DNA from: Rhododendron vialii
Lineage: Eukaryota > Streptophyta > Magnoliopsida > Ericales > Ericaceae
Reading direction: 5' to 3'
DNA length: 64,000 bases
Assembly: GCF_030253575.1 (NCBI RefSeq)
Contig: NC_080564.1
Location: 24,948,001 to 25,012,000, forward strand
How positions within the stretch are numbered: the first letter of the stretch is position 1; each line of letters begins with the position of its first letter. The position numbers were made by a program, and so were the translations under genes. The notes beneath the pieces were generated by a model. That model was not told the origin of the DNA and made no database searches. It was given only the letters and a program-made list of their open reading frames with translations. Of this stretch, positions 21,710-59,557 are shown piece after piece.

Positions 21710-21950
21710 GGGGAGCTTAAGTCCAAAAATTCAACTTTGCCACCCGATAGCCAATGCCGACGCCTGTAGACACCCCATTCTGGGCTGTCCAAAGAATGCT
21801 ATTTTCTGATGTTTTATTTCCCAAATGATGATTAATGGTCGAGAACAATCTGAGAACGATGATGTGTTTGAGCTTTGAGCGTCCCGAGCCTCTTTCAAAC
21901 CCCCTTCAAACCTTTCAAACCAGAGCCAAACAGCCCCAGCAAAACCCAAA

Positions 21951-22064
21951 TTGGCTTACGCCAGTACCTTGATGACGTACGCTAGTTAGCTGCCATGTGT
22001 CGGTCATCGACCGTTGACTCAGCTATCACTGGCGCACGCCGGTCTATATGTGGCGCACACCAGT
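21951..22064. promoter_or_regulatory. Two 21-bp palindrome pairs upstream of the LTR TATA box
   Basis: Motif half TACGCCAGT or its variants starts at 21957 and 21978, then at 22035 and 22056. Each pair is exactly 21 bp apart and the 7-base spacers (accttga, ctatatg) are unrelated. The last site lies about 230 bases before the TATA box. Confidence 0.9.
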
Positions 22065-22290
22065 CAAATCCAGTCAAATCAACTTTATTCAGCCACATGG
22101 ACGAGACTTTTGTGCCACCCTAACGTCGGCCACAGTCTCCCTGATGATTACTCTCGGCAGAGGCATTCCTTCTCTCTCCTACACCCCCCATCAAGGCAAG
22201 TCCCATGCATTTAATGCATGGGAGGCTCCATTCTTGCTCCAACCAGCCAAACAAGGCCTTGGTCCCAACTGATCTCAGTCTCCCTCTCCT

Positions 22291-22297
22291 TTATAAA
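22291..22297 (+). promoter_or_regulatory. TATA box of the Ogre-like 5' LTR
   Basis: ctcctttataaatccccc is the only strong TATA context in the LTR and lies about 525 bases from its start, a suitable place for the U3/R border. Confidence 0.65.
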
Positions 22298-22636
22298 TCC
22301 CCCCTTTGCATTCATTTGCAAGCTGGGGTTAGCCACATTAAGAAGAAGAAGCTCTCTCCTTCCCTCTTTCTTGCTCTCTATCTCTCTTCTTCCATTGAAA
22401 GAGAAAGTAGGGGAACTCACTTCCATATACCCTACTGATATCCAGTCACCTTCTAAACCTCCATCTTCAACCCTTAAGCTCAATACCACCTTCAATCATC
22501 AACACGAAAAGGTATACCACTTTTGTGTCCCTTTCTGTTCTCAACTTTTGAGGGAGACCAGTAAGGCCCAGGCTAGTAAGCAATACTAGTCCTAGCCTTA
22601 AACTGGTAAAATACAACAATCGTATGAGATGAGACA

Positions 22637-23208
22637 TGGCGCACGCCAGTACACCTAAGCCGTACGCCAGTCATGACAGTACGAGCACTACTGGCGTGGG
22701 GATCATGGATCATCATTTATGTTATCTTACCTTTCTGTCAATCACCCTTGCATTCTAATAATCAGTTTACTGCTTTCTGTATATTCGGTGTTGCTTAGAT
22801 GTTGTTGTTTACGCTTACCGTTTATCTGCTCAAAAGGCCTCTAGGATCTTTCTGGTCATGTTCCAGAGCCCAGATGATGCAAAGCCAAACACTGGATTAG
22901 GGTCAAACATGCGTACGACATCCTATGACTGGCGTACGGCAGTTTGTCCTAGGATCTAGTGGCTGGCCCTTGTATCTTAGCGTAATCTTGGCCTATTTTC
23001 TGTTCCCACACTGTTTTTGGGGTATTCTGCTGCCTTTCGAGGTTCGTAGCCATTTCATTTGTCTGTAACTGTATATATTTTGTTCTATTAAACTGCGTGG
23101 TTTGTCCTGGGTGTGCGCTGGTCCCTTTCCAGAGCCTAGAGGGTTGCAAACAAAGACTGTGAAACCTGATAAGTGGAGTACGCCAGTCTAAGTGTGGCGT
23201 GCGCAGGT
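22637..23208. promoter_or_regulatory. Three more 21-bp palindrome pairs in the 5' LTR
   Basis: Half-sites start at 22642 and 22663, at 22914 and 22935, and at 23179 and 23200: three pairs, each exactly 21 bp apart. They lie downstream of the TATA box, in the R/U5 part. A lone ctggcgtggg at 22691 has no partner at 21 bp. Confidence 0.88.
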
Positions 23209-23761
23209 TGTGCCAGCATGCAGTGGCTCGGCCAGTGCATGCTTGTGTGGATCCTGCTCATGTTCCTTCAGGGCAGTGTGCTTCAATTCGTTCGGTTTGC
23301 TCAGTGCTTGTTCTCAATCTATGTTTACTATTGCAAGCAAATCATCCATAAACATTTTGTCACATAAAATGCAACTTGTTACAGTTTTAATCCCCCTTTA
23401 ACTGTTCCCCCGCCCTAACTGGCTAAAAAATGATCAAATGAGAGAAAAATGCAAATGTTTTACAAAACAAAATGCCTGAGTAGAAACCGATCTTCGGATT
23501 GGGCGAGAGGGGTGCCATAAAACCCTTCCCCTCTCGTAACCGGCTCCCGAACCTCAGATATCAAAGGTGACGACAGACCAGTCTACAAGCCTTTTTCAAA
23601 ATCAAACAAACGTGGCAAACGTTTTCGAGTTCGGTTCCTTGGGTGTTTTCACCGCTAAAACCCGAGTGGCGACTCTGAATCGAAGCGTTTCGTCGCGCTT
23701 TTCAGGAAAAGGGTCGCGCCCGATCTTATAAATCGAGCATTTTTGGGGCGCGTGCCCACAG

Positions 23762-23779
23762 TGGCGACTCCGCTGGGGA
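23762..23779 (+). other. Primer-binding site, tRNA-Arg type
   Basis: tggcgactccgctgggga follows the LTR end by one base. This is the sequence I know from Ogre elements, complementary to a tRNA-Arg 3' end. Confidence 0.8.
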
Positions 23780-25254
23780 CTCATTGCGTTGATTGGTATT
23801 TGGCGATTAATACATGATTGAACAATTTTCAAAAGACTGTCAAAACAGTACACTCCGCGCTGCTGAAGAACGGAATGGTAACGTAACAGGATCTCAGCAT
23901 CCGACCAATCCGAACTGGGGCTTTTTCTATTGTTCTCTTGTGTAACTTTCTCCAAGTATTAGTTAACAAAAGTGAGCCAAGCTTCAAAGGGCATTTCTTT
24001 CAAAAGCATTGCATTTCTCTCTCATCAAATCATTCTTCGGCATTCTCCGTTTGCATCGATGGTTGGTCAACCCCGTTGAGGTGTTTTAGGTAACCGGCAC
24101 AATTTATTGGAGCCCGGGGTCCTCGAACGCCCAACAACCTTGGACGATGATGAGTCGTACTACCGTTCGACCATTACTTTGCTCTACGCATTACAATGGG
24201 AGGTATATTGCGGCTCTAGTCAGAGGAACCCCTTAAGCCAAAACCGGCCTCTACAGCGCTTACAAAACACTAGAACCTTTCAACCTAAGACAGGAACCCG
24301 CAGGGTAGGATTATTTGCATCTAACCCCTATATCCTGTCTATGTGCTATTGCTTTCCTTATCCCATGCATGTACATTCATTCATGACCGTTTTGCGTAGG
24401 AGCATGCTAGGGCAGCTTTTAGGATGTTTTTCGTCGAGTCTGTCTTACGCCCGTTCGACTTTGCCTTGGATCGATGACGAGTCGTGCATCTTGATGTTGC
24501 ACGTTACCAAAAATTTTCAAGTCCTTAATCAATGAGACCTCGGGAAATCAACACTTTCTAAGTCTTTGTCCAATGCCCCATCGAGGTTTCAAACTGAAAA
24601 AAAAACTAGGAACAATGGAGAGAATGTCGTGATGCTTACACCACTCAGGTTAAAAGTGCTAATCACTTACACCGTCCTGGCTCCGGCACAGTGCTGCTTA
24701 CGCCACCTCGGTTACTGTATCACGCCATCTATGCCGAGTTGTTCCAAGATCAAACTTTGAAACTTCGAGGAAGGTGGAAGTCAAAGGCTTAGGCTGTTTT
24801 GGCATCTCTTAGTAACATTCGATTCAATCAAGGATACATCGTCGAAAATAAGATCCGAGGATTCTATGGCAAATGTCCGAGTGTCGTAAGGCAGACTCTT
24901 TCTAGTTCTAGAGTCTAGGAGGACACCGACGATGTTGGCATGATCATTTTTCCATTCTTTTCGATTCTTTCAAATAAAATGATTGCAGGCTATCACTGAG
25001 TTCTTGTGCGTTGCTGTCTAGACATGCCGATATCAAAACAGGGGTCCAAAATCAAGAGCCAAACCTACTTGGGACTGTCCGCCCAGTCCGTTTGAAAGTT
25101 CTGATTTGGGGTTGCCTCTCGGTCAGTCACAACGGAAGCTCTGGCCTGCACTGTGTCCCGGGAGGATTCACCACCGACCACTCCGCACGAGTCCCCTCCA
25201 TCTACTCCGTCTCCGCCAGCATCGCCGATACTCGTTAAGACAGAAGTTCTAACC
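23780..25254 (+). other. Ogre-like leader before gag
   Basis: About 1.5 kb lies between the primer site and the gag ATG. Ogre elements often have an extra ORF here. Open frames exist (for example 24107-24535), but I see no known domain, so I do not call a gene. Confidence 0.5.
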
Positions 25255-26505
25255 ATGGCAGATGTCCCACCTCCGAATCTCGCTACCGTATTGGCAGATC
25301 TGCAGCACAACCTAGCCATCATGCAGCAAAGGGCCGACCAGGCCGACGCCTCTATGACCAATCTCCGAACCCTAATCGAAGAACGACTTCCTCTTACAGC
25401 AGGAGGGGAAGGCGGAGAAAGGCGAGAGCGGGACATCGTTGCCGAAGAAGAACCTCTGATCGAAAATCCTACTCCAAGCCCGGAAATGGCAGCTTTGGTC
25501 GCCAAAATGGCCAAGTTGGAAGAGGCAGTTGCTAAGTCCGAGAGAAAAGGAGCAGGAATGCTAGACATGGATTGCCTTTGCCCGTTCCCGAACGCCAGGT
25601 TGCCCGATCGGTTCAAAATGCCCGACTTTGCGAAGTTTGACGGAACCGGAAATCCGAAAACTCACCTGTTGGCCTATCATGGTGCAATGAAGTTGCATGG
25701 TGTTGGGGAAGACACGATGGCTCAGCTGTTTCCGCAAACTCTTGCCGGCCCCGCCTTCCAATGGTTCCTATCACTCGACATTTCCAAGAGATGGACATGG
25801 GAAGACATTGGCACGGCCTTCAATGCTCAGTATAGCTACAACGCCCAGCTCAAAATGACCACCCGGGAGTTGGAGTCGACTAAGATGAACGCAAAGGACT
25901 CTTTTGCAGACTTTATCCAGAGATGGAGGGCCAAGGCCGCTCTCATGCCCGATCACCCGAGCGAGAAGGACCAGATCCGCATCATCTCCTACAATCTGCA
26001 GCCGGACTTTGCCAAAAACGTCGTGTTGGTTCAGGGTGCGAACTTCGAAACTTTCTACGACTTCGGGCTGGCCATCGAAGAAGCCCTCCAAACTGGTGTT
26101 TTGCCCAGAAGTGACAATTCCTCCTCTACCTCAGCCTCAAAATCAAAACCCCGTGCGTACACCGGAAACAGCACTGCTCTATTCGGTGGCAACAGCTATG
26201 CCAACACAACCTCTGCTAACAATGCCTCTGCCTAAAGCTCCAGCCACATCGCCGACATCAACCAAGTTCAAACCCCTCAAAGACCCCGAAACCGCAACCA
26301 ACCCCGTAACTTCGCCAATTTTGAGGCACCACTTTCCTTGGTATTGGAGAAGTTAGTCAAAACCGGACACCTTAGGCCTCTAGCCCCAACTCCACTTCCT
26401 CAAAATTCACTCCCCAGTCATAACCCTAATGCCTTCTGTGCGTACCACCAAATGCTCGGCCATTACACTGACTCTTGCTATCGGCTTCGTCATGCGATAT
26501 AGGAT
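25255..26505 (+). pseudogene. Ogre-like gag (capsid/nucleocapsid), two in-frame stops
   Basis: ATG 25255 (MADVPPPNLATVLADLQ) is the first good start; the frame is open from 25153. An N-terminal coiled coil is followed by the gag core, with LPDRFKMPDFAKFDGTGNPKTHL, AGPAFQWFLSLD, WTWEDIGTAFNAQY and MNAKDSFADFIQRWRAKAA, the pattern of plant retrotransposon gag. After TAA 26233-26235 the same frame continues with basic residues and a zinc-finger-like CAYHQMLGHYTDSCYRLRHAI, then TAG 26500-26502. Both stops could come from CAA/CAG. Gag builds the virus-like particle and packages RNA. Confidence 0.85.
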
Positions 26506-29040
26506 TTGGTGGACAATGGTACCCTTCCAACTCCACCTACTAAACCCAATGTCATTACCAACTCCTTGCCTAAACACGACCCCAACCCTCAAGTAAACCA
26601 GATAAACCTCAGCTCCACCATATTCAACCCCACCGACCATATTACCTTAGCCAACAACCCTAAACCAATCATACCCTTTCCTTCTGAGCTAAGTGTTAAC
26701 ATGATGGCAGCCGGTTGGGCCATGGAAGACAAGGCCAAGGAATGGGAGGAGCTTTGCAATGATTGGATCGAACAGCACAACATGGGATTCTCCACGCACC
26801 CTCAAGTCAATCAAATATGGCTAGACCAGTGGGAAGGAGAGTGGAATGCGGCACAGGCTGACCCTCTGGACGGTCTCTCCTTATTCGCACTCTTCTACCA
26901 GCCTAAGCTGAACCAAGTTGAGGAGGGAGCCGGGGAATACGTGTGGGATCCACAACCCGAGGAATGGCAAATAGGTCAGGGTCTCAGGGCTGATTTGGAC
27001 CAGGATGACATCAGTGAGGAGTACTGGGATCACTATCAAGAAGGGGAGATTGTATCGGATGTCCGTCGCCCGCTCGGCGCCATGCTATCTTTGGTGAATA
27101 CGATTGCCGGCATGGTAGGGCGTTGCGCCCATGAATTTGACCCTACTCTTGAGATTGTCCCAGTAGAGCAGCCTCGCCCTATTGTTTCGGCTCCCGGAGA
27201 TGACTGCTTGATCATGGTCCTGGATGCACCTCTCGCCGACCTTTGGGATGCAGAGGAAACCGTTAAGACTCTGCCACCTGCTGATATCTGGGACGTGGAC
27301 AATATCGTCGATCTGAACATGGGGAATAAAGTGTGGACTGTCAACACTGCCCTTGTCGACGGAGGATTCTGGGATGTTCCGTTTGTTACTAACCCGGGAG
27401 CGCCTTTCGAAGAAGATGCTGCGCAGGACCCTGCTTTTTGGGAGGGATTAGTGATGGAGGATTTGGAATGGGACTCAGCTCTGGGGCCAGACTCGACTGC
27501 AACGGTTGCGACAACAGACAAAGGGAAGCGCAAGTTGGAAGAGGTGCCAGCCGATTTGTGGGATTCTATTGACTCATCTTCTTGGTGGGATGTCGCCAAC
27601 GTCACATGGAGCGGACGAGTATTCCATCCATCTAATCTCCAGGCTGGGAGTTCATCCAATCCAATTGCTCAGAGGACCGCCACTCCCGCCGCTCAGAGGA
27701 ATGATCCGGTCTTTTCGGGTGGGGTTCCCGAAGAAGACACCATCTTGAAACAGCTCGAACTGATTCCGGCCGCCGTGTCTATCTGGGGTTTGATATCGTC
27801 ATCAAAGGAGCATCGTGAAAAGCTATCCTCTGCACTGGCCCGGCTCACGGTACCGATTGACATTACGCCCGAGGCCATGATTGCTCTTATGCTGCCGCTC
27901 TTCTCTAAGCACTCTGTCACATTCACCGAGAGGGATCTGCCCGTCGAAGGAACTGCTCATAACTGCCCGTTGCACATCACTGTCAAGTGCCGGGGACATT
28001 GGGTGCCAACTGTGCTGATCGACAATGGTTCCGCCGTCAACGTTTGCCCGATGAGAGTTGCCTATCGCTTGGGGCTCACCAAGAATGACTTAGCACCCTC
28101 CAATCTGGCCGTCAAAGCGTATGACAGCACTCGCCATGCGGTGGAAGGAACTCTAACTCTGAAACTCGATGCGGAGGGTTTTGAAATGGACGTAGAATTC
28201 CATGTCGTCGACATCCCTGCCACCTTCAACCTGCTGCTGGGCAGGCCATGGCTTCATAGGGCCGATATCATGGCGGTACCTTCGACTCTGCACCAAAAGG
28301 TCATGCTGGGGCTCCCTACCGGAACTTTAACGATCTGTGGAGATTCTGGAATCCGCCCGCTCTCGGATGATGGAACGCCTATTCTGGGGATCATGCACGA
28401 GGAAGAAGACTCAGACTTTGGAGGCTTCTCTTTCGACACGTCTGGCTCAGTCCTCGCCATCGCCATGGATGATGATTTCACCATAAGCTCAACTGTCCTC
28501 GAAATGATGAGAAAAATGTCATTCATGCCTGGCTTAGGACTCGGGGTCAACCAACAAGGGATCGCTGAGTTCCCTGTCTTTCCTTTCACCGAAGGCCGCT
28601 TTGGTCTAGGTTACACTCCACCGACCAAAAACGCCAAAAAGAGAAAAGACACGGGAAAACCTCGAACCCTTTTTGGTAACCCCGACAGCTATTTTGTTCG
28701 GGAAGGAGGAGGCTCTACTTATTCAGGACAAATAGAGCTGTTTTGGGATTCGGAGACTTGCACCTGGCTATCAGGATTCGAAATCTTTGCTGCGGACACC
28801 TGGTCCAGCGGTGAAGGGGAAACAGCCGAAGAGAAGCTTGCTAAAGGGGAATTCGAGAAACATCTGGGTCGGACCAAGGAGAAGTTTGACTGGCTGAAGG
28901 CTTTCGATCAAGGGGGTCTGGAGATGCTGTTCTCCCAAGTAGGTTTGGTTGGCAAGGGCGAGGATGCTGAAGTGCTTATGCTTGGGCTCGACTCACCAGA
29001 TGCTCTCGAGGATCCTACCTCTCTCATTGTGAAGGCGTAG
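26506..29040 (+). pseudogene. Ogre-like protease region with G-patch-like motif
   Basis: 844 codons, same frame as gag. The first 430 residues are acidic and Trp-rich (many WD/WE pairs) with no known fold. The retropepsin-like part lies at about residues 470-610, with active-site stretch VLIDNGSAVNVCP (Asp near residue 506) and the flap/C-terminal signature FNLLLGRPWLHRADI. A glycine-rich MSFMPGLGLGVNQQG at about residue 671 is like a G-patch, known next to protease in some retroelements. It ends at TAG 29038-29040, after which the frame goes on. Confidence 0.85.
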
Positions 29041-30780
29041 GGAAGTATCAATAACTGTATTTTCACTCCGCGTTTGACATGCATTGACGATGTATCTGAA
29101 TCTAACACAGAGTCTATCAAGTCTAAGTCTAGCTCAGAGTCGGAGTTTGTGCCTCTTGGCCCTCCACGTCGTAGCTTTTACTTTGAGTTCGAGTCGTTTG
29201 TACTTGGCAACCCGGTTGGGCTTTATGAAATGCATGATCCTGCTTCTGACTACTTTGCTAGCTTCTATATAAACTGTGTCGACCCGGACGATGAAGGAAC
29301 AGACTTCGACGGGGACATCCCGGCTGAGTTGCGTTCCCTCATCGAAAAGGAATACGAAAGGCGTGTTCAGCCTCTAAAAGAAGAAGTAATTTCTGTAAAT
29401 TTGAAAGATGAGGATGACCCCGGCATGATGCAAATTGGTGCAAACCTATCCCCGGAAAATCATGCTGGAACAATTGAGCTTCTCAAGGAATTTCCCGAGG
29501 TTTTAGCATGGTCTCACAAGGATATGCCCGGCATTGATCCTGAAATAGTGCAGCATCGAATCCCGTTGGAGCCTGGGGCTGTTCCCGTCAAGAAGAAACT
29601 CCGCAGGATGAGGCTGGATTGGGTTCAGAAGATCAAAGAGGAGGTTACCAAGTAGATCGACGCAGGATTCATAAGGGTCACAGAATACCCCAAATGGGTG
29701 GCCAACATCGTGCCTGTCCCCAAGAAGGATGGAAGGATCCGAGTCTGCGTCGACTTCAGGGATTTAAACAAGGCAAGCCCCAAAGACAGTTTTCCCTTGC
29801 CACACATTGACGTGCTTGTAGACAACACGGCGGGGCATGCCTTGCTCTTTTTTGTTGATGGATTCTCCGGATACAACCAAATCTCTGTGGCACCCGAGGA
29901 CCAAGAGAAAATGACATTTGTCACGGAATGGGGCACCTACTGCTATGTAAAGATGCCATTTGGGCTGAAGAACGCCGGATGTACTTTCCAACGGGCCCAA
30001 ACGACCTTGTTCCATGACTTTATCCATAAGACCGTTGAGATCTATGTCGACGACATGATTGTGAAGGCAAAGGAGGAAAAGGACTACCTTCCGTCACTCA
30101 GGCAGTTTCTTGAAAGGCTTCATAAGTACAACGTGCGTCTGAACCCACAAAAGTGTACATTTGGAGTCACGGCAGGCAAGATGTTGGGATTTCTGATCAC
30201 TGCAAGGGGAATTGAAGTAGACCCTTCCAAAATCAAGGCGATTCTCGAAATGGAGCCGCCAAAGTCTGAGAAAGGTGTGCGAAGTTTTCTAGGGAAGGTC
30301 CAGTTCATCGGCAGGTTCATCTCCAAGCTAACTCTAACCTGTAAGCCGCTATTCCGTTTGCTCAAAAAGGGGGTCCCGTTCGAATGGACAGAGAAATGCC
30401 AGGCCGCCTTTGAGTCTATTCAAAGGTATTTGCAGAACCCGCCTGTACTGATGCCGCCTACGCCAGGCCGACCGTTGATTCTTTATCTGTCCGTCTCTCC
30501 AACAACCATGGGATGTCTACTAGCACAGGAAGGGAACAATGGGGTCGAGAGAGCTGTTTACTATCTGAGCAAGAAAATGGTAGGGTCCGAGGAGCGCTAT
30601 ACCCCACTGGAGAAGACATGTTGGGCGCTGGTTTGGGCTACCAGAAAGCTTAGATGCTACATGCTAGCCTATTCGGTGAGACTGATTTCTCGGATGGATC
30701 CTATCAAGTATCTGTTCGAGAAGCCCGCGCTCACCCATAAGCTAGCACGTTGGTTGCTTCTGCTGGCTGAGTTCGAACTC
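29041..30780 (+). pseudogene. Ogre-like reverse transcriptase and RNase H
   Basis: The frame is the same as gag. A linker (ESNTESIKSKSSSESE) precedes a conserved run with LKEFPEVLAWSHKDMPGID, then TAG 29653-29655 inside EEVTK-stop-IDAGFI. Reverse transcriptase follows with VPVPKKDGRIRVCVDFRDLN, MPFGLKNAGCTFQRA and the catalytic YVDD at 30043-30054, which is intact. The gypsy-type RNase H after it has lost typical acidic residues (LYLSVSPTTMGCLLAQ), as is usual where a second RNase H takes over. Ends at TAA 30781-30783. Confidence 0.88.
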
Positions 30781-30783
30781 TAA

Positions 30784-31413
30784 CACGTCACGAGAAAGTC
30801 TGTAAAGGGGCGTGCTGTGGCCGAATTTTTGGCCGATCACCTAATCGACGGCCCGGAAGACGTGGATTTCACCTTCCCCGACGAGGAGGTGTTGACAGTG
30901 GTCGAGGAAGTATGGACGCTCTATTTTGATGGAGCTGTTAACCAGAAGGGATTTGGGATCGGAGTGTTGTTGATCACGCCCGCCGGCGCTCACATTCCGC
31001 TCGCTTTCAAGCTGAACTTCGATGTCACCAATAATCAAGCTGAGTACGAGGTCTGCATCGTCGGGATGGAAGCTGCTATTGCTTTAGGAGTCGAGAGGCT
31101 CGAAGTAATTGGAGATTCAAACTTGGTGGTCTCCCAAGCCAATGGAGATTGGAAGGTTCGTGAGGAAAAGCTGAAGCCTTATCACCAAGATTTGGAAGAA
31201 CTGATTCCTCGCTTCAATAAAGTGACTTTCACCCATGTCCCACGTTTGAAGAATCAGTTCGCTGATGCTTTGGCAACTTTGGCTTCAATGATCGAACTTC
31301 CAATAGGCGTTAAGTTGCGGCCGATTGTGATTGAACAGAGGGACTTGCCTGCTTATGAGTATGTCAACGCCATTGATGATGTCGATGATGGCCTACCCTG
31401 GTACCATGACATT
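30784..31413 (+). pseudogene. Second (archaeal-type) RNase H domain
   Basis: After TAA 30781 the frame resumes with RKSVKGRAVAEFLADHL and a complete RNase H: LYFDGAVNQKGFGIGVLL, NNQAEYEVCIVGMEAAI, VIGDSNLVVSQANGDW and NQFADALATLAS supply the Asp/Glu/Asp/Asp set. A second RNase H acquired between RNase H and integrase is a hallmark of the Tat clade. Ends at TGA 31414-31416, probably from TGG. Confidence 0.87.
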
Positions 31414-31416
31414 TGA

Positions 31417-32643: not shown

Positions 32644-33185
32644 GAGATGCTCGTTGGGTCGAAAACCACAAGGGTGGACGATTCCAAGCAAAAGTTAGAG
32701 CAGCCTGCTAGACCGAAAACCTAAGGAGGCGGTTCTAGGCAAAAATAAATAGGCAAAATTCAAAAAGCTCGCTAGGCTGAAAACCTGAGAAGGGCGGTCC
32801 TAGGCAAAAGTTAGAGCGTAAAAGGAGAGGTAAAATACACGAGCGAACCTTTGCCTGAACTACATTCTGACCTGATTCCTTGAAAAGGGATACGTAGGCA
32901 ATCTCACTTTGAGATTCGGTCATATTTTATCCAAGTTTTGATCCAGGGTTGACATTTTCGGGTCCTCATCGCAGTTCGAGAAGGTCGAGCACAAGTTAAA
33001 GATGCACTGAGGAGGATCAGAAAAGGGGAAACCCATCGTCTTTCAACTTTATTGCAAATTACTACTTCTAATACATAAGCTGAGTATAAAAGCTTTAAAA
33101 CAGTGAAAGCATGAAAAACAGAACGAAATGCTTAAGAAGCCTAACGGCTCGCGGTTTATTCTAAGCATAGCAAAGTGGCCCGGAG
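32644..33185 (+). repeat. Three degenerate copies of a post-integrase repeat
   Basis: Between 32648 and 32815 a unit of about 55-60 bp recurs three times: gtcgaaaacc...gattccaagcaaaagttagagc, ctagaccgaaaacc...ggttctaggcaaaa, and ctaggctgaaaacc...ggtcctaggcaaaagttagagc. Each could form a small stem with ctag/ctag ends. After them comes plain sequence up to the antisense gene end at 33186. Confidence 0.7.
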
Positions 33186-34428
33186 TCAGTTAATGTTCTC
33201 CTTTGCATTTGCATCTGATCTCAGCCACTGTCTGTAGCAATTCCTTAGCCCTGTGGTAAATTCCGACATCTCAGCCTGGAGGGCTCTAAGGCCCCAGCGC
33301 CTCTGGTAGCCGTTGAGTGTTTGAGCGTTGAAATTCGGGACACGGAAGTCCCCAATGCTGATCCGGTGGTTCTCCTGAGAAGCGCTCAGTTGGCGAAGGA
33401 TACAGCTGGGAATGTAGAAGGTAAAGCTCAACAGACCTGCAATCACCATCCTGTCGAATCCATCGGAGTGAATAGCCATATCCGGGAGGTCCAGCCAGGG
33501 GCACCTCCAGGCAATCTGATCAGGCTGCATTTGCTGCATGAACTCATACCAACCTTCTATATCCATGTTAGGATACCGCATCTCCCTTTGATGAATCCTC
33601 TTCGGAAAGAGATTTCAACCCGCCACTGATGGGTTCAGTAAACTCAATTTGTTCGACAGCCACAACTGCATGAGCGAAAAGACAAGTAAGAAGTCAGATA
33701 AAGCCTGAGCGAAAAGACAAGTAAGGAGCTAGGAAGCAGCCTAAGCCGAGCGTCGAGGAAAAACGAGAACGTGTGAAAAACCGAAAAAAGGTGACCTGAA
33801 GCAAAAGCGGGCTCCCGCTGAAAACGGCCGACTGGCCCGTATATACCAGATCCAAACCCAAGAGTGTCTCGGCCAGGACCAAAGGGATCACGTTCCTTCG
33901 TGCCCCCATCTGGGCAGCAACGCTCACAAGTGAAGGGCTGACCTGCCCGTGGGCCGGAATGAGCAGGTAGGCGGCAAGCAGGCAGATTACTAAGGCAAAG
34001 CGACGACGCGCCTGAACCTCATCGCTGTCCAAATCGCTGTCTGGACTGTACATCTCAATCAGCCGCATGATGTTCAGTTGGCCGCCGTCAAGGATCGTGT
34101 TCGCCAAACCCCGGGAGATGTTGAGCGAGCTGGCAAGCAGTTTAGGCATGCTTGCTTGATAAGGCGGAACAACAAGCGTAGGGGACGAGAAGGTCCGGAG
34201 GTACGCCTGGAATTCCTCAACGGTCGGGCACATCTCGTCATCGCCAAAGCGAAAGACATGGACGTCAGGGTCCCAGAATCGGAGGGCAGCCCGCAGGAGC
34301 GCCGGACGGAGCGGCACATGTCGAAGAAAACGGAATGAAGCAAGGCCGTGATATTGGAAATTAAGCCAGTCGACGCTTAGAAATTGCGCCAACCAGGGCC
34401 TAAGTAAAGTTGGGAGGGGGTTGTCCAT
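33186..34428 (-). pseudogene. Antisense PMD gene 1, two exons, one stop
   Basis: Read on the minus strand, exon 1 is 33796-34428 (MDNPLPTLLRPWLAQFLS) and exon 2 is 33186-33665, joined in phase over a 130-bp GT-AG intron (SPLLLQ|LWLSNKLSLL). Exon 1 contains LRFWDPDVHVFRFGDDEMCPTVEEF and exon 2 contains EFMQQMQPDQIAWRCPWLD and AGLLSFTFYIPSCILRQL. This is the plant mobile domain pattern (aminotransferase-like/MAIN family) seen both in host MAIN/MAIL proteins and in gypsy elements. One in-frame TGA lies in exon 2 (near 33617, after NPSVAG). A TATA box and paired palindromes lie upstream. Its role in the element is unknown; host PMD proteins act in transposon silencing and genome stability. Confidence 0.78.
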
Positions 34429-34502
34429 GGAAAATGCTGGAGTATACTAGAGGAAAAGGGGAAGCAATGCAGCCGTGAAGGCCACAATGCATGTGCCCCA
34501 AC

Positions 34503-34509
34503 TTTATAG
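34503..34509 (-). promoter_or_regulatory. TATA box of antisense PMD gene 1
   Basis: On the minus strand ggccTATAAAGttgg lies about 75-80 bases before the ATG at 34428. The nearest palindrome is about 190 bases further upstream. Confidence 0.6.
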
Positions 34510-34697
34510 GCCTTGGCCATTCTTTCCATCTCCTGATACTACATTCAAATGCCATGCTAGCTTCCAAACTACACCCCTGCAAAGGACACTGCCTCCTCAG
34601 AGCTCAGAAACCGTGTGCAAACCGTGTGAGGGTAAAAACAAAGTGGCCCCTAAAAAAGAACAGTTGGTCAGTCAAGTGGATCTGGCACTCAGAAACC

Positions 34698-34778
34698 TGG
34701 CGTATGCCATTTTATAACTGGCGTATGCGTGTCCCCCACTTACTGACGTACGAGGCAAAATTTCTGGCGTACGCCAGT
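34698..34778. promoter_or_regulatory. Two palindrome pairs upstream of antisense PMD gene 1
   Basis: Half-sites start at 34703 and 34724, then at 34749 and 34770, both pairs exactly 21 bp apart, with spacers ttataac and aaatttc. The copy at 34764-34777 is the perfect palindrome ctggcgtacgccag. The cluster is about 270-350 bases upstream of the antisense ATG. Confidence 0.9.
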
Positions 34779-35698
34779 AAGGTTCACTAGAAACCAGTTT
34801 GCAGCAGCTACTGCCTCCGCATGGTCATTCTCAATTCTGGGGCTGGCTTTGACCATTTGTTGGTTCCTACAAGTTATGAATGTCATTTGGGACTATGGCA
34901 AGGCGTCGGATTCCAAAAGCCACACCCGATGAGGATTTCGGACCCTCGGCGGCCCGTTTCAAGCTAAAATCATAGATACGGGAGGTCAAATCTCGTTTCA
35001 GGGGCTTTTGCCAAGTTTTGTCATACCATACATGTTACATAGGACTTATGTGACTGTATGGGGGTGTCGGTTTCAGTCCGGGACCATATCGAGTCATCTT
35101 TTGCGTCTTATGTCCATTTTTGTGGCATTTTTGGCCTTTTCTTGATATTTTCCTCACACCGGGACAATTCTGCCGGTTTGCGTGGTTTGTGCAAGTCTTT
35201 GTACATCTATGTTGTCAGTTCAAAGGGTCAGTTTCCTTCGTTTAGGAGAATGTCGGAGTTTGGCCAACTAACGCTCAAATCTCCCCGTATCCTCCGCGTG
35301 TCTGGGATACGTGTCGTATCCTAGGACTTTTCTGTCCATCTTTTTCTTCGAGCTAAGTCAATCGTATGTGCATACAAGTGTCTTTTGTCGATTCAGAGCA
35401 TTTGTCAATGCATGTTAGATATTAGCAGATAGTTTGTTATTTTCCTTAATCAAACCTCAGCAAAAGCAAGGGAAATTGATAAACGGGAAATGCAGAAGTT
35501 TTACTACTACTGTGTCAAAGCGTAAAAGTAGAAGTGTATCAAGTATCGAAGCGGCGCAACGGCCCAGGCAGAACTAAAAATGTCAAGGCACACTCGCCCA
35601 AAATTCAAAAGGCACGCAGGCCCTATCCAAAGTATCAAAGCACCCATGTCAAAAGTATCAAAGTATCAGCAAAATAAACTAAGGCTCGGTGGTAGCCC
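34779..35698. other. Spacer between the two antisense PMD genes
   Basis: Non-coding by my reading on both strands. It would contain the promoter-distal part of antisense gene 1 and the 3' UTR of antisense gene 2. No repeat is recognised. Confidence 0.45.
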
Positions 35699-38600
35699 TC
35701 AGTCGTCAAAAAGATCCTCGTCGTCGTCGTCCTCCTCGCTCTCCTCCAACTCTCGAGGGTCCATCCGGAACCTGGGGTCGCTCGCCGAGTCAGAGCCGCT
35801 GCTGAGGGACGTCAGTTCCTCTTCTTCTTCCTCCTCTCTCCTCTTCTTCTGTGAGGGTTCCTCGGAAAGCCTCTTCTCTGCAGGCCTCTTCCTCAGTTCT
35901 CGGCGAAACTGGAGCTCCTCGCTAGTCGGAGTGATTTGCACTCCCCGTTGTACCTTCGCCGCTGGTCGAGAGGAGCTCGGTGCTACCTTCTTCGTCGGAG
36001 GAGGCCACACACTCTTCCTTCTAGGAGCCGCCCTAGCATGTCCCTGCATGGTCATTCAAGTCATTTAGCATACATTGTGCATGTTGTATATATTGAAATG
36101 CTAGGTGCAGGAAATTTCGAAAGCAATCCTATTCAAAAAGAAGAGCAAAAAGTTATACCTGAGGCTGAACAACAGGGGCTGGAGCTGGTTGAAGGTAGTG
36201 CAACTGTAAAGAGGCACCGCCGGCTATCTTGTGAAACTCTTTCTCCATGGCCTTCATCAAGCGAGCTGCCTCACGTACCCACTCCATCGGGGCCTGTTAT
36301 ACAATTTTGGGCAAGAAATCAGAATACAAGCCGGATATACATGCCGAAAGTAAAGTAAAGGGAACTACAAAGGGGCGAAGAATATCATACCGGTCCTGTG
36401 ATCTCTGCTGGCTCTGTCCGGGCAGGCTTAAACCGAACTGTGGCCTCCTCTCCTTGCGCGTCCTGCACCGCTAGTGTCTAAGAAAGCCGAGGCAGCCCGG
36501 TCGCTGTGGCATAGTCGCTCCTCTCTCTAGGCCGTGCTGCCCTGCTCTCCCGGCTCCTCTTCTCCTCGCCAGCCTCGAGTGCCTCGCCCTGCACAGCGAT
36601 ATGCTCCAAAACCCCAAGTGGCCCCGCCAAGCGCTGCCTCCGGTAGACAGCAAAATCACGCTCGGGCCTCAGAAAAGCAGCAAGGCCGGCCGGAACAGTG
36701 AAGCGCTGCAACTCAGCCAAGGTGTACTTATCTGTGTGAGAGGTGTGAGGTGGAAGTGGCCCAGGAACTTGGAACTCAAGAGAGCCCAGTGACTGCTGCG
36801 TCACCCGGTCACCTAAGTACCACCGCCACCCAAAGGCCGACTCCAACAACACCCGGCTCGCTGTCACCACCCTGCTCCACGCTAGATACTCAGGCTCAGG
36901 CTCGGCATTGCTTCATGGGTTCCACTCTACCTGCAAGACAAGTGCACAGATTCAAAGTCATCAGCGACAGCATTAAAGCAATTCTAAGGGCAGAGTGGCC
37001 AATCTGACGTGTTGCTTACCTGAGTACCAGACAGCTTGTCAAGGTACGACCTGAAGGCTAGAGGCTCCCTCTCGACTTCTTCTTGCCGCTATACATGGGG
37101 CCCCAGATCATGGCACGTGGGAGCATCCTCAGGTTCGGGCACTTGTTTTCCGGTGGGTACATCTTCAGCACTTCATAGGCCCACAGCTGCAAATGTTCAG
37201 ACAATCAAAGCATCAGAATACAGTTCATAGGAAAATCAAGGACAAGTGCAATAAAGGGAAGGCAGGAAATGAATTGCAAGTTTTGTTTATTACCTCCCAC
37301 ACTCTCCAATAGCCGGCCGTCGCCTTCTTCCCGCGTGAGAACTCCCCCATAAAGCCATAGCACGTGCCCAGAGCTGCTCCTCCCCAGTCGAATCGTGAGG
37401 CCGTGCCCAAGTCACAAAGGGCCAGCAAGTAGGACAGGTGCACCGTGGATCGCTTGTTCGGGTACAATGTAGCCCCGAACAAGTACAACAAATAGGCCAT
37501 CGCCATCTGCTCCGCCTCCAACTCCGAGTTCGGCTCCCTCCCATGCAAATACCGTCTGAACTGGTCGTAATGAACAGTCTCTGCCTCACTTGCTGGCGCC
37601 TGCCCTAAGAACCACTCCAGAGCCCTAGGATCCCTGTGAATCTCCGAGTCGAACGGGAGGCTCTCCTCCTACCCTCAAGCCAGTGAGCGCTGCAAAGTCA
37701 GACGGAGTCACCGTCATCTCCCCGATCGGAAAGTGGAAGGTATTCGAGGAATCCCACCACCTCTCGGCCAGTGCAGTAAGCAGAGCGTGGTCGCTCTTCA
37801 CGGCCGTCAACGTGAGGATGAACGGCCGAAACTGCAGCGTCAACCAAAGCCCTGACCCGCTCTGGCAGCCCTCGGTACAACTCAAGCAAGCTCGCAGGAC
37901 CTCCATGGCCCCGAGTGCTGGCCGCTCCTCTCTGCATACAAAGACAGTCAACAAAAAGAGTCTCGTCAGTAATCGCAACTCAAACAGTCAGTCAAATTCA
38001 GAATTTCAACAGTAATTCTACGGTCGAAACAAGCATCATAAAGGTCGAACAAAGCTACCGGGCACTCATAGCATTTTATCCAATGCTACTATCAGTCGAA
38101 TCAAATCAAAGGCATTTCTTAGTCAAGTTCCGAGATACATGGTGTTATATTTTATCAAGGCACACCTCTCAGTCGATTTCAAAAGGATTTCTATTTGTCA
38201 AACTGGTCGATTCAAACTTTGAACACGCCATTCGGGCGTTCAACATGTCATGACAATCTACTTAGTCGAGTTCAAGTTCAAAGGGCTATCGTTTTAGTCG
38301 AGACAGTTTACGGTCGATTCAAGCCTGGCACTAACAGTCTTTATTGAAGTTATGGGCGTTCTGCAAGTCGATTCAGCTGTATCAAGTGTTCTATCGTTCA
38401 AAGTCAAGTTTCAAAGTCGAGGCATACTGTTCAAGTTCTACTTTCTCAATCAAGCTACAGTTCAGAGTTTTGGCCTACGTACGTTACAAGTTATGCTACG
38501 CCAATACAAGCTACAAAAGGTTGTAAATAACAAAGCATGCATATCAAAGTAAGTTCCGAAGTATACCTGCACCCAGTCCACGGACAGGTGTCTCTGTGGA

Positions 38601-39488
38601 TCTCTCAGTATAAGCTCTGCATCGTAGCTCTCCCGCAGAGGTGCGAGGCAGAGGTGCAAGGCTCTAAACCCCGGACGGAATGAACAAGTGTGGCTCGGGC
38701 AAAACGTATGTGGCCGCGTCGAACCGAGCACGGGGCGCCAGCCGTATGGACTCTGCGAGTGTCACTGCCCGCTCAAAAGACCACACCTCCCCCTGAGCCT
38801 CCTCGGGAGCCCCGGTCTCGCTCACAAAGGCCTCATCCTCGGCCCTGGCCTGCTCGGCCTCCTCTCTCAAGCGCTCCTCCTCCTGGGCCCTCTCAACCTG
38901 CCGGAGCCGATCCTCCCGCGCTGCCAGCACCACAGCTAGCACCCCCGAATTCTCCCGGAGCAAGCGGTCGAGCTCCTCCTCCGACACAAACTCTGCAAAA
39001 TCCCCCCGAGTGATGAGCACATGCGCCGAGGACCCTACTGCCGGCCTAAACTCAACCTCCTCCATGGGCACCTCCCCGGACACCCCCTCCTCAACCACGG
39101 GACCCTTGCCCCTTGCCGGATCCCTTGGTGGTGTCCCCGGTCGACCACCACCATCACCACTGCCACTGCCGCTGGCCCCGAGCGAGCCCAAACCTGTGAT
39201 CACCAAACCCTCTACATCGCTCCGTGGATCCAATCGACGAACCCGTGGACCCCCCGTACCAACAGAACCTGGCGTACGCCCCTCATCACCACCAACCGCT
39301 GCCCGTGCATGGCCATCGCCACCACCAGACTCGCTTGTAACCGCTACACCAATGGCCGACGAAGCCTCTGCAGTCGATGGATCGTCGATTCGGACACCCA
39401 TGATCTCGGGCTCGCCCTTCGACCGAACCTCGTCACCACCACCTCTATCACTGCCATTGCCCCCATTGCCGCCTCCGGATTCCGCCAT
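35699..39488 (-). pseudogene. Antisense PMD gene 2, at least five exons, with frameshifts
   Basis: The minus-strand start is ATG 39488 (MAESGGGNGGN). Exon A (38567-39488) is Gly/Ser/Glu-rich, then ...ALHLCLAPLRESYDAELIL...SVDWVQ at a GT donor; a one-base shift occurs near 38668. Exon B (37294-37931) has FRPFILTLTAVKSDHALL, RWWDSSNTFHFPIGEMTVTPSDF and the block MAYLLYLFGATLYPNK, the core plant mobile domain, with two more shifts (near 37830 and 37645). Exon C (37020-37186) reads LWAYEVLKMYPPENKCPNLR. Exon D begins at 36930 (VEWNPW) and runs to about 36478. An acidic, Lys/Glu-rich tail with a nuclear-signal-like KKRR stretch lies at 35699-36055. Exons A-C have consensus donors and acceptors, so this was a spliced gene transcribed against the element. 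The later borders are less sure. Confidence 0.72.
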
Positions 39489-39652
39489 GGATGAGCGTGG
39501 GTGAGTGGGTTTATGGGAAGGATGAAAGTGTGAGAGAGTTTTGAAGTATTGGGATTTCAAAAGTCGAAGAATGGCGGTTTCCGAGCCTCTGCAGAAGTTA
39601 TACGACGTATAGAGCGATTGGGCCGGGTCTGGGCTCAAATCTTTGCAGAAAG

Positions 39653-39687
39653 TGGCGCACGCCAGTATTATAGTACCGCACGCCAGT
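39653..39687. promoter_or_regulatory. Palindrome pair upstream of antisense PMD gene 2
   Basis: Half-sites CACGCCAGT start at 39658 and 39679, exactly 21 bp apart, with spacer attatag. A weak TATA-like ttata (plus strand 39598-39602, minus-strand TATAA) lies between the pair and the ATG at 39488. Confidence 0.88.
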
Positions 39688-39805
39688 ACGTCTTGGGCTT
39701 GAGGCCCAGATCACCCCGTGTGACGGGGTCCGTTCTCAAATGGTGTTCTAAATTGCCTTGAGTTGCGTTAGTACCCGTGTTGAAATTATCCCCAAGCAGA
39801 GGTCC

Positions 39806-40106
39806 GTCCAATTTCAAAACAACGACGATCTATCCGTCCTTTTTCAACTCAACGACGGTCCGCCCGTCCATTTTCAAATCAACGACGATCTATCCGTCCT
39901 TTTTCAAATCAACGATGGTCCACCCGTCCATTGTCAAATCAACGACGGTCCACCCGTCCATAATCAAAGTCAAGGACGATCCACTCGTCCAATTTCAAAT
40001 CAACGACGATCTATCCGTCCAATTTCAAATCAACGACGATCCACTCGTCCAAAGTCAAATCAAAGACGATCCACTCGTCCATTTTCAAATCAACGACGAT
40101 CCGCTC
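39806..40106 (+). repeat. 30-bp tandem repeat array in the 3' untranslated region
   Basis: Ten head-to-tail units start at 39806, 39836, 39866, 39896, 39926, 39956, 39987, 40017, 40047 and 40077. The period is 30 bp with one 31-bp step. The consensus words are tttcaaatcaacgacgat and cyatccgtcc/ccactcgtcc. There are no spacers. Tandem arrays before the 3' LTR are known in Ogre-type elements. Because 30 is divisible by 3 the array opens long artificial frames. Confidence 0.95.
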
Positions 40107-40348
40107 GTCCGACAGTCTTTCTTTCCCCAACAGAGTCGATGCTTTTGCAAGGTGGATCATTCCCCAGGAGAATCCACATTGCATGATCTGCCCGCCAAAG
40201 ACAACAATGCGGCGGTCTATCCGTCCCAACTTCAAATCAAACAGGTTCTCTAAAAAAACACTTCATTCATCCTAGATGGTCTCGAAGAGGGTGTCTAGAA
40301 AACCTTTGATGTTACTGGTCTCCAGTCAATGGTGCCTCAAGTGCCATC

Positions 40349-40361
40349 AAAGGGGGGCTAC
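40349..40361 (+). other. Ogre-like polypurine tract
   Basis: aaaggggggctac ends directly at the 3' LTR start tgtagacacc. It is the expected plus-strand primer position. Confidence 0.75.
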
Positions 40362-42344
40362 TGTAGACACCCCATTCTGGACTGTCTAGAGAATGCTATT
40401 TTCTGATGTTTTATTTCCCCAATGATGATTAATGGTCGAGAACAGTCTGAGGACGATGATGTGTTTGAGCTTTGAGCGTCCCGAGCCTCTTTCAAACCCC
40501 CTTCAAACCCTTCAAACCAGAGCCAAACAGCCCCAGCAAAACCCAAACTGGCTTACGCCAGTACCCTGATGACGTACGCCAGTTAGCTGCCACGTGTCGG
40601 TCATCGACCGTTGACTCAGCTATCACTGGCGCACGCCGGTCTATATGTGGCGCACGCCAGTCAAATCAACTTTATTCAGCCACATGGACGAGACTTTTGT
40701 GCCACCCTGACGTCGGCCACAGTCTCCCTGATGATTACTCTCGGCAGAGGTGTTCCCTCTCTCTCCTACACCCCCCATCAAGGCAAGTCCCATGCATTAA
40801 TGCATGGGAGGCTCCATTCTTGCTCCAATTAGCCAAACAAGGCTTTGGTCCCAACTGATCTCAGTCTCCCTCTCCTCTATAAATACCCCTCTTGCATTCA
40901 TTTGCAAGGGGTTAGCCACATTAAAAAGAAGAAGCTCTCTCCTTCCCTCTTTCTTGCTCTCTATCTCTCCTCTTCCATTGAAAGAGAAAGTAGGGCAACT
41001 CACTTCCATATACCCTACTGATATCCAGTCACCTTCTAAACCTCCATCTTCAACCCTTAAGCTCAATACCACCTTCAATCATCAACACGAAAAGGTATAC
41101 CACCTTTGTGTCCCTTTCTGTTCTCAACTTCTGAGGGAGACCAGTAAGGCCCAGGCTAGTAAGCAATACTAGTCCTGGCCTTAAACTGGTAAAATACAAC
41201 AATCGTATGAGATGAGACATGGCGCACCCCAGTACACCTAAGCCGTACGCCAGTCACGGTAGTACGAGCACTACTGGCGTGGGGATCATGGATCATCATT
41301 TATGTTATCTTACCTTTCTGTCAATCACCCTTGCATGCTAATAATCAGTTTACTGCTTTCTGTATATTCGGTGTTGCTTAGATGTTGTTGTTTACGCTTA
41401 CCGTTTATCTGCTCAAAAGGCCTTTGGGATCCTTTTGGTCATGTTCCAGAGCCCAGATGATGCAAAGCCAAACACTGGATTAGGGTCAAACATGCGTACG
41501 ACATCCTATGACTGGCGTACGGCAGTTTGTCCTAGGATCTAGTGGCTGTCCCTTGTATCTTAGCATAATCTTGGCCTATTTTCTGTTCCCACACTGTTTT
41601 TGGGGTATTCTGCTGCCTTTCGAGGTTCGTAGCCATTTCATTTGTCTGTAACTGTATATATTCTGTTCTATTAAACTGCGTGGTTTGTCTTGGGTGTGCG
41701 CTGGTCCCTTTCCAGAGCCCAGAGGGTTGCAAACAAAGACTGTGAAACCTGATAAGTGGAGTACGCCAGTCTAAGTGTGGCGTGCGCAGGTTGTGCCAGC
41801 ATGCAGTGGCTCGGCCAGTGCATGCTGGTGTGGATCCTGCTCATGTTCCTTCAGGGCAGTGTGCTTCAATTCGTTCGGTTTGCTCAGTGCTTGTTCTCAA
41901 TCTATGTTTACTATTGCAAGCAAATCATCCATAAACATTTTGTCACATAAAATGCAACTTGTTACAGTTTTAATCCCCCTTTAACTGTTCCCCCGCCCTA
42001 ACTGGCTAAAAAATGATCAAATGAGAGAAAAATGCAAATGTTTTACAAAACAAAATGCCTAAGTAGAGACCGATCTTCGGATTGGGCGAGAGAGGTGCCA
42101 TAAAACCCTTCCTCTCTCGTAACCTGGCTCCCGAACCTCAGATATCCAAGGTGACGACGGACCAGTCTACAAGCCTTTTTCAAAATCAAACAAACGTGGC
42201 AAACGTTTTCGAGTTTGGTTCTTTGGGTGTTTTCACCGCTAAAACCCGAGTGGCGACTCTGAATCAAAGCGTTTTGTCGCGCTTTTTCGAAAAAGGGCCG
42301 CGCCCGATCTTATAAATCGAGCATTTTTGGGGCGCGTGCCCACA
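40362..42344 (+). repeat. Ogre-like 3' LTR
   Basis: Full-length partner of the 5' LTR, with scattered transitions and a few small indels. It keeps the same palindrome pairs: half-sites 40554/40575, 40632/40653, 41225/41246, 41497/41518 and 41762/41783, all 21 bp apart. Confidence 0.95.
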
Positions 42345-59528: not shown

Positions 59529-59557
59529 GGCTAGGGTTTATTATTTTGGTGTAAATC

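Follow-up and report, generated by a model that had tools for sequence, protein, structure and literature searches.

In the window analysed here, a 64,000-nucleotide stretch of the Rhododendron vialii genome (contig NC_080564.1), lies a retrotransposon with two long terminal repeats (LTRs) and two antisense genes. Its features, numbered from the first letter of the window, are as follows.

21765..23760, + strand: 5' LTR, with TG...CA ends
22292..22299, + strand: LTR TATA box, CTATAAATA in most relatives
33186..34428, - strand: antisense gene 2, DUF7745-like, at least two pieces (33697-34428 and 33186-33614)
34502..34512, - strand: TATA box of antisense gene 2, GGCCTATAAAG in 12/12 covering rows (13 aligned)
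35699..39488, - strand: antisense gene 1, inferred to be spliced, with a plant mobile domain (PF10536)
39270..39281, no strand assigned: single palindromic site within the coding region of antisense gene 1
39595..39607, - strand: TATA-like box of antisense gene 1, CGTATAAAC-like and less conserved
40362..42344, + strand: 3' LTR, 2.9% diverged from the 5' LTR

The alignment of the two LTRs shows 58 differences in 1983 aligned bases, and a 5-bp target-site duplication, ACGCC, flanks them on the outside. Two LTRs, TG...CA ends, a target-site duplication and the gene order gag, protease, RT-RNase H, integrase are those of a Ty3/gypsy element; gag, RT, RNase H and integrase score above the Pfam cut-offs, while the protease matches fall below. 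Because the integrase follows RT, the element is not a Ty1/copia Sirevirus. It also has the extra ORF with a plant mobile domain (PMD; PF10536, E=1.9e-15) of the Ogre (Tat) group, a trait described as present in 57% of Ogre elements, and thus typical rather than universal (PMC6317226, available text).

The open pieces of antisense gene 1 lie at 38664-39488, 37625-37987, 37225-37668, 36478-36912 and 35699-36055. One piece carries the PF10536 match above the cut-off (E=1.9e-15), and the next falls just below it. For antisense gene 2, the DUF7745 similarity is below the Pfam cut-off, and in relatives the second piece is also weakly PMD-like. Weak DUF1985 matches were found in all four copies of one antisense piece (E 0.0054-0.031; 14.7-17.2 bits against a cut-off of 35.1), and no DUF287 match was listed for any of the 8 antisense pieces in the profile search. 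An AlphaFold model of exon 1 of antisense gene 2 was uninformative (pLDDT 39), and searches of solved structures returned nothing useful.

Distributed over the LTRs and the region of the antisense genes is a palindromic motif that occurs in pairs. The first-pass annotation had reported 13 such pairs, each exactly 21 bp apart, and all are present where it placed them; its numbers mark the right half-sites, 5 bp beyond the palindrome starts. The pairs, none assigned a strand, are listed with the starts of their two palindromes.

21952..21986: pair P1 (21952, 21973), 306 bp upstream of the LTR TATA box
22030..22064: pair P2 (22030, 22051), 228 bp upstream of the LTR TATA box
22637..22671: pair P3 (22637, 22658), downstream of the LTR TATA box
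22909..22943: pair P4 (22909, 22930), downstream of the LTR TATA box
23174..23208: pair P5 (23174, 23195), downstream of the LTR TATA box
34698..34732: first pair upstream of antisense gene 2 (34698, 34719)
34744..34778: second pair upstream of antisense gene 2 (34744, degenerate; 34765)
39653..39687: pair upstream of antisense gene 1 (39653, 39674)
40549..40583: copy of P1 in the 3' LTR (40549, 40570)
40627..40661: copy of P2 in the 3' LTR (40627, 40648)
41220..41254: copy of P3 in the 3' LTR (41220, 41241)
41492..41526: copy of P4 in the 3' LTR (41492, 41513)
41757..41791: copy of P5 in the 3' LTR (41757, 41778)

Since the 3' LTR duplicates the 5' LTR, only 8 of the 13 pairs are independent. 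The motif core in the window element is TGGCGYACGCCA. The palindrome had been given as 14 bp, which is too long: the symmetrical part is 12 bp, TGGCGTACGCCA, and the trailing GT is an asymmetric extension. A C variant (TGGCGCACGCCA) destroys the central symmetry, and several palindromes are degenerate, with 4 mismatches at 34744 and 3 each at 22909 and 34719.

Pairs at spacings of 8-80 bp were counted in region 21765-40361. When one site was allowed at most 1 mismatch and the other at most 3, 7 pairs fell at 21 bp and 6 at other spacings, one each at 40, 46, 57 and 67 bp and two at 78 bp; loosening the limit to 3 mismatches for both sites added a single pair, at 22 bp. Among 300 first-order Markov sequences of equal length, scanned at the stricter limits, there were 0 pairs at 21 bp and no spacing was seen twice. 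The 43 kb of flanking DNA (1-21764 and 42345-64000) contain no pair within 80 bp at up to 2 and 4 mismatches. The distances between pairs (57, 78, 46 and 67 bp) are constant in the element family, yet they are not whole helical turns.

Relatives were sought in one genome (533 Mb). The LTR alignment comprised 24 copies, reduced to 21 elements by dropping three second LTRs of the same element; L011, partial LTRs (L015, L023, L026 and the second LTR stretches of L009 and L027) and the repeat fetches L030, L036 and L041 were excluded. In element counts for spacings and antisense promoters, L019 was joined with L036 and L014 with L041. The motif itself served to find the loci, and 20 were hand-picked for varied spacers, leaving motif-less elements of the lineage unsampled, and 18 of the 21 aligned elements were found through P2. 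Across the 21 elements, conservation was 0.933 in the sites, 0.635 in the 7-bp spacers and 0.873 in the remaining LTR, and the values are 0.925, 0.639 and 0.873 when P2 is omitted. None of 5000 random mask placements reached this contrast between sites and spacers. The spacers are thus far less conserved than the sites, as the first-pass annotation had maintained from the window. Spacer divergence (0.286-0.657) exceeded that of fourfold sites (0.235-0.425) in five of six comparisons, and CpGs were retained in 96.3% of 376 cases in LTR sites against 87.0% of 939 elsewhere in the LTR.

The spacing, unlike the spacer sequence, varies little. It is 21 bp in all 21 elements for P1 and for P3, in 19 for P4 (one at 20 bp, one with a deletion) and in 20 for P5 (one at 22 bp); P2 is spaced at 21 bp in 12 elements and at 20 bp in 9. 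In the diverged LTRs of L026 and L027 a 31-bp pair stands about where P3 sits, and may be a plain duplication, its two units sharing about 20 bp with flanks included. The exact 21 bp first noted describes the pairs of the window; among relatives the spacing departs from it in places. Constancy of length is not rare in these LTRs, where 58 of 155 equally variable 7-mers elsewhere are likewise constant. Two other origins of the pattern were considered. A mutation hotspot in the spacers is not supported by the differences between the two LTRs of single elements (1/35, 0 and 0 spacer differences in three elements, a small sample); between elements, spacer divergence equals or exceeds the synonymous rate. 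Phased 21-nt small RNAs were set aside by reasoning, as just 12-14 of each 21 bases are conserved.

A genome-wide search with a strict 10-bp core gave 665 rows at spacings of 10-40 bp, whereas the reversed control gave 1. Subtraction leaves at least 660 of these rows at 20-21 bp; there were 0 matches at 10-19 bp, and 35 rows, representing 26 places, at 22-52 bp. A pair-distance peak among relatives had been put forward as a check, and within this one genome the peak at 20-21 bp is sharp. The two refuting outcomes named beforehand, a missing peak at 21 bp and spacers as conserved as the sites, were both looked for among relatives in this genome, and neither occurred. Of the 26 places, 12 hold triples (40 or 42 bp), and another 12, at 45/46 bp, look from their letters like the distance separating the pairs of antisense promoter 2. 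At all 12 triple places the spacer is copied letter for letter, as 21-bp or 20-bp units were duplicated, and locus L014 has three units. Scans of viral contigs found no relative.

Such spacer-copying duplication points to slippage as the source of new units. The triples, and the three units at L014, are also what would be expected if the pairs were functionless remnants of 21-bp tandem duplication. We regard this as highly improbable, since the sites persist although the spacers diverge no more slowly than synonymous positions, and nine positions whose spacers are unrelated show one and the same spacing. New units probably arise by slippage, with sites and spacing then maintained by selection. 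The peak and the conservation contrast thus favour selection on a putative protein-bound site over a copied repeat, as first suggested. A variable loop of fixed length between conserved arms also resembles a stem-loop, and the left palindrome might pair with the right in genomic RNA. However, at the five LTR pairs double changes that compensate each other number 3, whereas 130 changes are one-sided, the C-A centre retained on both sides at P2 would disrupt the stem, and a single loop is incompatible with 31-bp pairs and triples. We rejected an RNA stem for want of covariation at the LTR pairs and consider the hairpin scarcely credible.

The same motif is common to the LTR and both antisense promoters. 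At antisense promoter 1 the pair is present in 16/16 elements (14 at 21 bp, 2 at 20 bp), none of which was found through it; at antisense promoter 2 it is present at 21 bp in 14/14 elements, 11 of which were found through it. The idea that the antisense promoters have their TATA box within the pair spacer was considered and dropped: gene 2 has a better-conserved TATA box nearer its start (12/12 covering rows), and at promoter 1 the spacers of relatives are mostly not TATA-like. Within the coding region of antisense gene 1, relatives have a 21-bp pair (a 7-codon repeat) at the equivalent of 39270..39281, where the window element is without one unit; the codon test of this pair is only suggestive, since some neighbouring Gly and Ala codons are equally invariant. 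Not every pair is an upstream element: P3-P5 are downstream of the LTR TATA box, and another pair falls within coding sequence. Sites in such places would suit a structural or replicative role, in which the pairs serve the element DNA in chromatin organisation, insulation, integration or pairing and control no transcription. That role gives no reason to expect pairs upstream of three distinct TATA or TATA-like boxes, and we judge it improbable.

Our preferred reading, to which we assign a probability of roughly 0.5, is that the pairs are protein-binding operators or enhancers serving this retrotransposon family specifically, with one of the element's own antisense proteins as a possible regulator. 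A spacing held near two helical turns (with exceptions at 20, 22 and 31 bp) and free spacer sequence are those of paired operators, and two DNA-binding dimers would sit on one face of the helix in mutual contact. Pairs occur upstream of the LTR TATA box and of both antisense gene starts, so one factor may jointly set the LTR promoter and the two antisense promoters, acting as an activator, an anti-silencing factor or an autoregulator. The weakest step is that this factor would be encoded by the element itself, as one of the antisense PMD/DUF7745 proteins; it is suggested because pairs are found almost exclusively inside the element family.

Alternatively, the element could be exploiting a host transcription factor that binds the pairs, the antisense genes merely sharing the host input. 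GGCCCA words adjoin the pair of antisense promoter 1 and resemble ordinary plant promoter elements. Tandem boxes occur in the LTRs of Tnt1 and Tto1. PMC2829016 describes plant LTRs in which two or three cis-acting boxes recognised by host stress factors stand in an array. On the other side, 27 of the 28 loci fetched through pairs are similar to the window element and belong to the same family, and the exception, L022, is unlike them, with a different outer base, a 31-bp spacing and no similarity to the window element. A host factor with such a preference should also have host target genes. Neither point is decisive, and a host factor seems to us somewhat unlikely.

Returning to operators dedicated to the family, the nearest known cases are the palindromes of Sirevirus LTRs and the motifs of the VANDAL/VANC system. 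VANDALs are DNA transposons of the Mutator type, whereas the window element is an LTR retrotransposon. In foamy viruses the element-encoded factor Tas acts both on the LTR and on an internal promoter for accessory genes, but these are animal retroviruses with sense-strand accessory genes, in contrast to a plant element with antisense genes. The motif letters themselves had no match in the literature searched. The first-pass annotation knew of no described motif of this form in Tat elements; a parallel does exist in plant LTRs, where Sireviruses carry a repeated palindromic, CpG-bearing motif suspected to be regulatory (PMC2829016, available text). As here, motif copies lie upstream of a conserved LTR TATA box and on the 5' side of an additional gene, there ENV-like. 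Sireviruses are Ty1/copia elements with high motif copy number and mostly a CGG-CCG core, which the window motif does not have; the Ty3/gypsy window element has a GGCG-CGCC core and pairing at 20-21 bp beside antisense genes, while the available text of PMC2829016 mentions no fixed pair spacing.

In VANDAL21 a short motif is bound by the element-encoded anti-silencing protein VANC21 (PMC5735166, PMC10398659, as far as accessible). The likeness lies in a short, TE-specific motif in one orientation, found in non-coding regions of one family and only sporadically outside. The VANDAL motif, YAGTATTAY, differs in forming tandem repeats whose units evolve together, and VANC carries DUF1985 and DUF287, whereas the antisense pieces of the window show DUF1985 only weakly, below the cut-off. 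In Retand, as in the window element, antisense genes lie between pol and the 3' LTR, and their TRP28 ORFs are suspected of binding DNA and regulating the element; the available text of PMC11963269 describes no target sites for TRP28, and the window genes have PMD and DUF7745 instead. The Arabidopsis PMD proteins MAIN and MAIL1 are required for expression of genes with a common promoter motif (DOWN), but these are host genes, the MORC1 promoter motif is CATGCAGTTT, and direct binding is presented as a hypothesis (PMC7156037, PMC9899485, available text). We advance tentatively, as a rather unlikely reading, that the PMD and DUF7745 proteins encoded antisense in Ogre-like elements work like VANC: they would recognise helically phased palindrome pairs in their own LTRs and promoters and act sequence-specifically as activators or anti-silencing factors.

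The function of antisense genes in giant Tat-type retrotransposons is called unknown in the available text of PMC11963269, and Arabidopsis PMD proteins act on promoters in a manner described as unknown (PMC7156037, PMC9899485, available text). The motif offers a concrete DNA target common to the LTR and both antisense promoters, and the set looks like a private switch by which one protein could control the whole element. If an antisense protein binds it, such elements would contain a control circuit of their own, and there would be a precedent for DNA binding by PMD proteins. If the VANC-like reading is true, the long-puzzling antisense genes of giant plant retrotransposons would gain a function, and PMD, DUF7745 and DUF1985 would unite as one superfamily of TE-encoded regulators.

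The pairs of palindromic sites, each normally placed 21 bp start to start around a 7-bp spacer, lie in an LTR retrotransposon flanked on either side by a 5-bp duplication, ACGCC. ORF and profile matches give a Ty3/gypsy gene order (gag, protease, RT-RNase H, integrase), and two antisense genes sit between the integrase and the 3' LTR. The relevant features are as follows.

21765-42344: LTR retrotransposon; LTRs of about 2 kb, differing from each other by 2.9%
22292: LTR TATA, conserved in relatives
34512-34502, minus strand: TATA of antisense gene 2, GGCCTATAAAG, identical in 12/12 rows covering the position
34428, minus strand: start of antisense gene 2; two pieces, presumably spliced
39607-39595, minus strand: TATA-like box of antisense gene 1, less conserved
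39488, minus strand: start of antisense gene 1; at least five open pieces, presumably spliced

Two pieces of antisense gene 1 match the plant mobile domain (PMD; PF10536), one above the cut-off (E=1.9e-15) and one at E=2.8e-07, 30.5 bits versus a cut-off of 34.9. PMC6317226 reports PMD ORFs for 57% of Ogre elements, and the Ogre-like label of the first-pass annotation fits the PMD ORF found here. Both pieces of antisense gene 2 match DUF7745 under the cut-off (E 0.00012 and 0.00067), and in two relatives the second piece shows a weak match to the terminal part of the PMD profile (E 0.0018 and 0.029). The protease ORF (26503-29040, plus strand) has a weak, below-cut-off G-patch match (E 0.0014). 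Directly before the 3' LTR lies a 30-bp tandem array (39804-40110; about 10 copies, 83% matches), and similar arrays of other lengths occur in related elements. A Transposase_32 ORF (PF20167; 20148-21068, minus strand) stands beside the retrotransposon, and flanking ORFs were judged by eye to represent a Ty3/gypsy element (44927-49542, minus strand) and a Ty1/copia element (59555-63525, plus strand).

All 13 pairs that the first-pass annotation had placed at 21 bp are present, 8 of them independent. The site is palindromic as claimed, with a symmetric core of 12 bp rather than 14: the right-hand GT is kept (G in 13/16 and T in 14/16 window sites), versus 9/16 for A and 7/16 for C of the matching left-hand AC. 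No 21-bp pair arose in 300 Markov sequences, and no pairs within 80 bp were found in the window flanks outside the retrotransposon.

We searched the assembly (532.6 Mb in 13 contigs, window included) for two copies of the core GGCGYACGCC at 10-40 bp start to start, with a reversed control. Genome-wide counts of repeats are lower bounds: at least 347 forward and at least 318 reverse rows were obtained, versus 1 and 0 for the control. Two T-type cores (Y=T) in a pair read the same on either strand, which means that these places are counted on both. The matches listed (100 rows) form 84 places, of which 61 are spaced by 21 bp, 22 by 20 bp and 1 by 31 bp. The core gave no matches genome-wide at 10-19 bp, and 35 rows (26 places) at 22-52 bp, namely at 31 (1), 40 (3), 42 (9), 45 (9), 46 (3) and 52 bp (1). 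At most 5 rows of this last set fall within 22-40 bp, which leaves at least 660/665 rows with a spacing of 20 or 21 bp, a sharp peak of the kind that had been proposed as a check. Three units stand in tandem with letter-identical spacers at 12/12 places with 40 or 42 bp, so whole units are sometimes duplicated. Judging from their letters, the 45 and 46 bp cases appear to measure from one pair of antisense promoter 2 to the other.

Relatives were sampled as 28 loci fetched through pair matches, 20 of them chosen for varied spacers, and a further 13 taken around 3' LTRs. In the 13 loci whose LTRs were compared with the window LTR, identity is 69% to 86%. Similarity to the window element was found in 27/28 pair-fetched loci. 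The exception, L022, carries AGGCGTACGCCT twice, 31 bp apart (4999-5041), among several further GGCG words, and represents either another family or chance. Allowing up to 2 mismatches per site, the 28 loci hold 66 pairs spaced by 21 bp, 5 spaced by 20 bp and 3 by 31 bp. Distances of other sizes, up to 100 bp, recur between pairs, most commonly 78 (18), 57 (12) and 67 (9).

The exact 21-bp spacing holds for the window, but relatives also show 20, 22 and 31 bp. Among 21 elements, pair 2 of the five LTR pairs (P1-P5) is at 20 bp in 9, pair 4 is at 20 bp in one and deleted in one, and pair 5 is at 22 bp in one; the pair of antisense promoter 1 is at 20 bp in 2/16. Two diverged LTRs (L026 and L027) have a 31-bp pair, which interpolating from the aligned stretches on either side places at pair 3. 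The two loci are alike, so this spacing is probably one event, and since flanking letters are common to both units, a longer unit may have been duplicated. Spacings of 20-21, 31 and 42 bp are all close to whole helical turns, and may reflect helical phasing.

P1 and P2 end 306 and 228 bp upstream of the LTR TATA, and P3-P5 lie downstream. The gene 2 pairs begin 186 and 232 bp upstream of its TATA, and the gene 1 pair lies 46 bp upstream of its TATA-like box. The promoter 1 pair is present in 16/16 elements, none found through it, and the promoter 2 pair in 14/14, 11 of them found through it. A further 21-bp pair in the gene 1 coding part occurs in 18/19 elements (two found through it), the window element alone lacking it. 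Within one of its units the third base is kept in 15/15 arginine, 16/17 threonine and 16/17 proline codons; the average across 107 columns is 0.751, though some adjoining codons are equally constant.

The first-pass annotation had asked whether spacers are as conserved as sites, and they are far less so: over 21 elements, sites and GT each have a mean majority frequency of 0.933, whereas spacers have 0.635 and the remaining LTR has 0.873. As 18/21 elements were found through pair 2, the comparison was redone without it, giving 0.925 (GT included), 0.639 and 0.873, a contrast reached by 0/5000 random placements of the same mask. Spacers rank in the lowest 0.6-7.6% of LTR 7-mers by conservation, yet not at the very bottom. 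Among four elements they diverge by 0.286-0.657, versus 0.235-0.425 for fourfold sites, and by more than these in 5/6 comparisons; judged by sequence, the spacer acts as free sequence, perhaps changing even faster. The constant length of a single spacer is weak evidence, because 58/155 equally variable LTR 7-mers likewise show no length change. The strong point is one spacer length at nine positions with unrelated spacers (P1-P5, two at promoter 2, one at promoter 1 and one coding).

Covariation expected of an RNA stem was absent between left and right LTR sites (3 double versus 130 single changes, five pairs summed), as was covariation between halves of one site (0 versus 128). Each site tends to retain its own variant, as in the right site of P5, and CpG is retained in 96.3% of 376 cases in LTR sites versus 87.0% of 939 elsewhere in the LTR. 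We conclude that the pairs are very probably protein-binding sites maintained by selection. They would, with good though lesser probability, couple the LTR promoter with both antisense promoters. That the retrotransposon encodes its own putative binder is the weakest step, which we hold tentatively at somewhat under even odds. We give the complete statement a probability of roughly 0.5.

A hint towards VANC comes from DUF1985, because DUF1985 and DUF287 belong to VANC proteins (PMC5735166). One PMD-bearing piece matches DUF1985 weakly in 4/4 copies tested (37225-37668, minus strand, and loci L019, L028 and L023; E 0.0054-0.031, below cut-off, overlapping the PMD match). PMD, DUF7745 and DUF1985 may belong to a single superfamily; the literature searched yielded no mention of DUF1985 together with PMD. 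The right half-site with GT and the next T (ACGCCAGTTT in relatives; 34698-34732 and others) loosely resembles the DOWN motif CATGCAGTTT, which PMC9899485 describes for a PMD-dependent Arabidopsis promoter; this likeness may be chance. Among the titles that literature searches listed, none reports a palindromic motif in Ogre/Tat LTRs, and the motif letters did not occur in the literature searched, which included few subscription papers.

VANC21, encoded by VANDAL21 itself, binds a motif specific to that family (PMC5735166). In Sireviruses, boxes that are palindromic and contain CpG stand before the LTR TATA and close to the ENV-like gene (PMC2829016); likewise, the palindromes here contain CpG, and the LTR TATA has P1 and P2 upstream of it. 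A regulatory role is suspected for the antisense proteins of Retand (PMC11963269). The Sirevirus, VANDAL21 and Retand systems are known parallels, and for the pair motif a clear experimental test is available.
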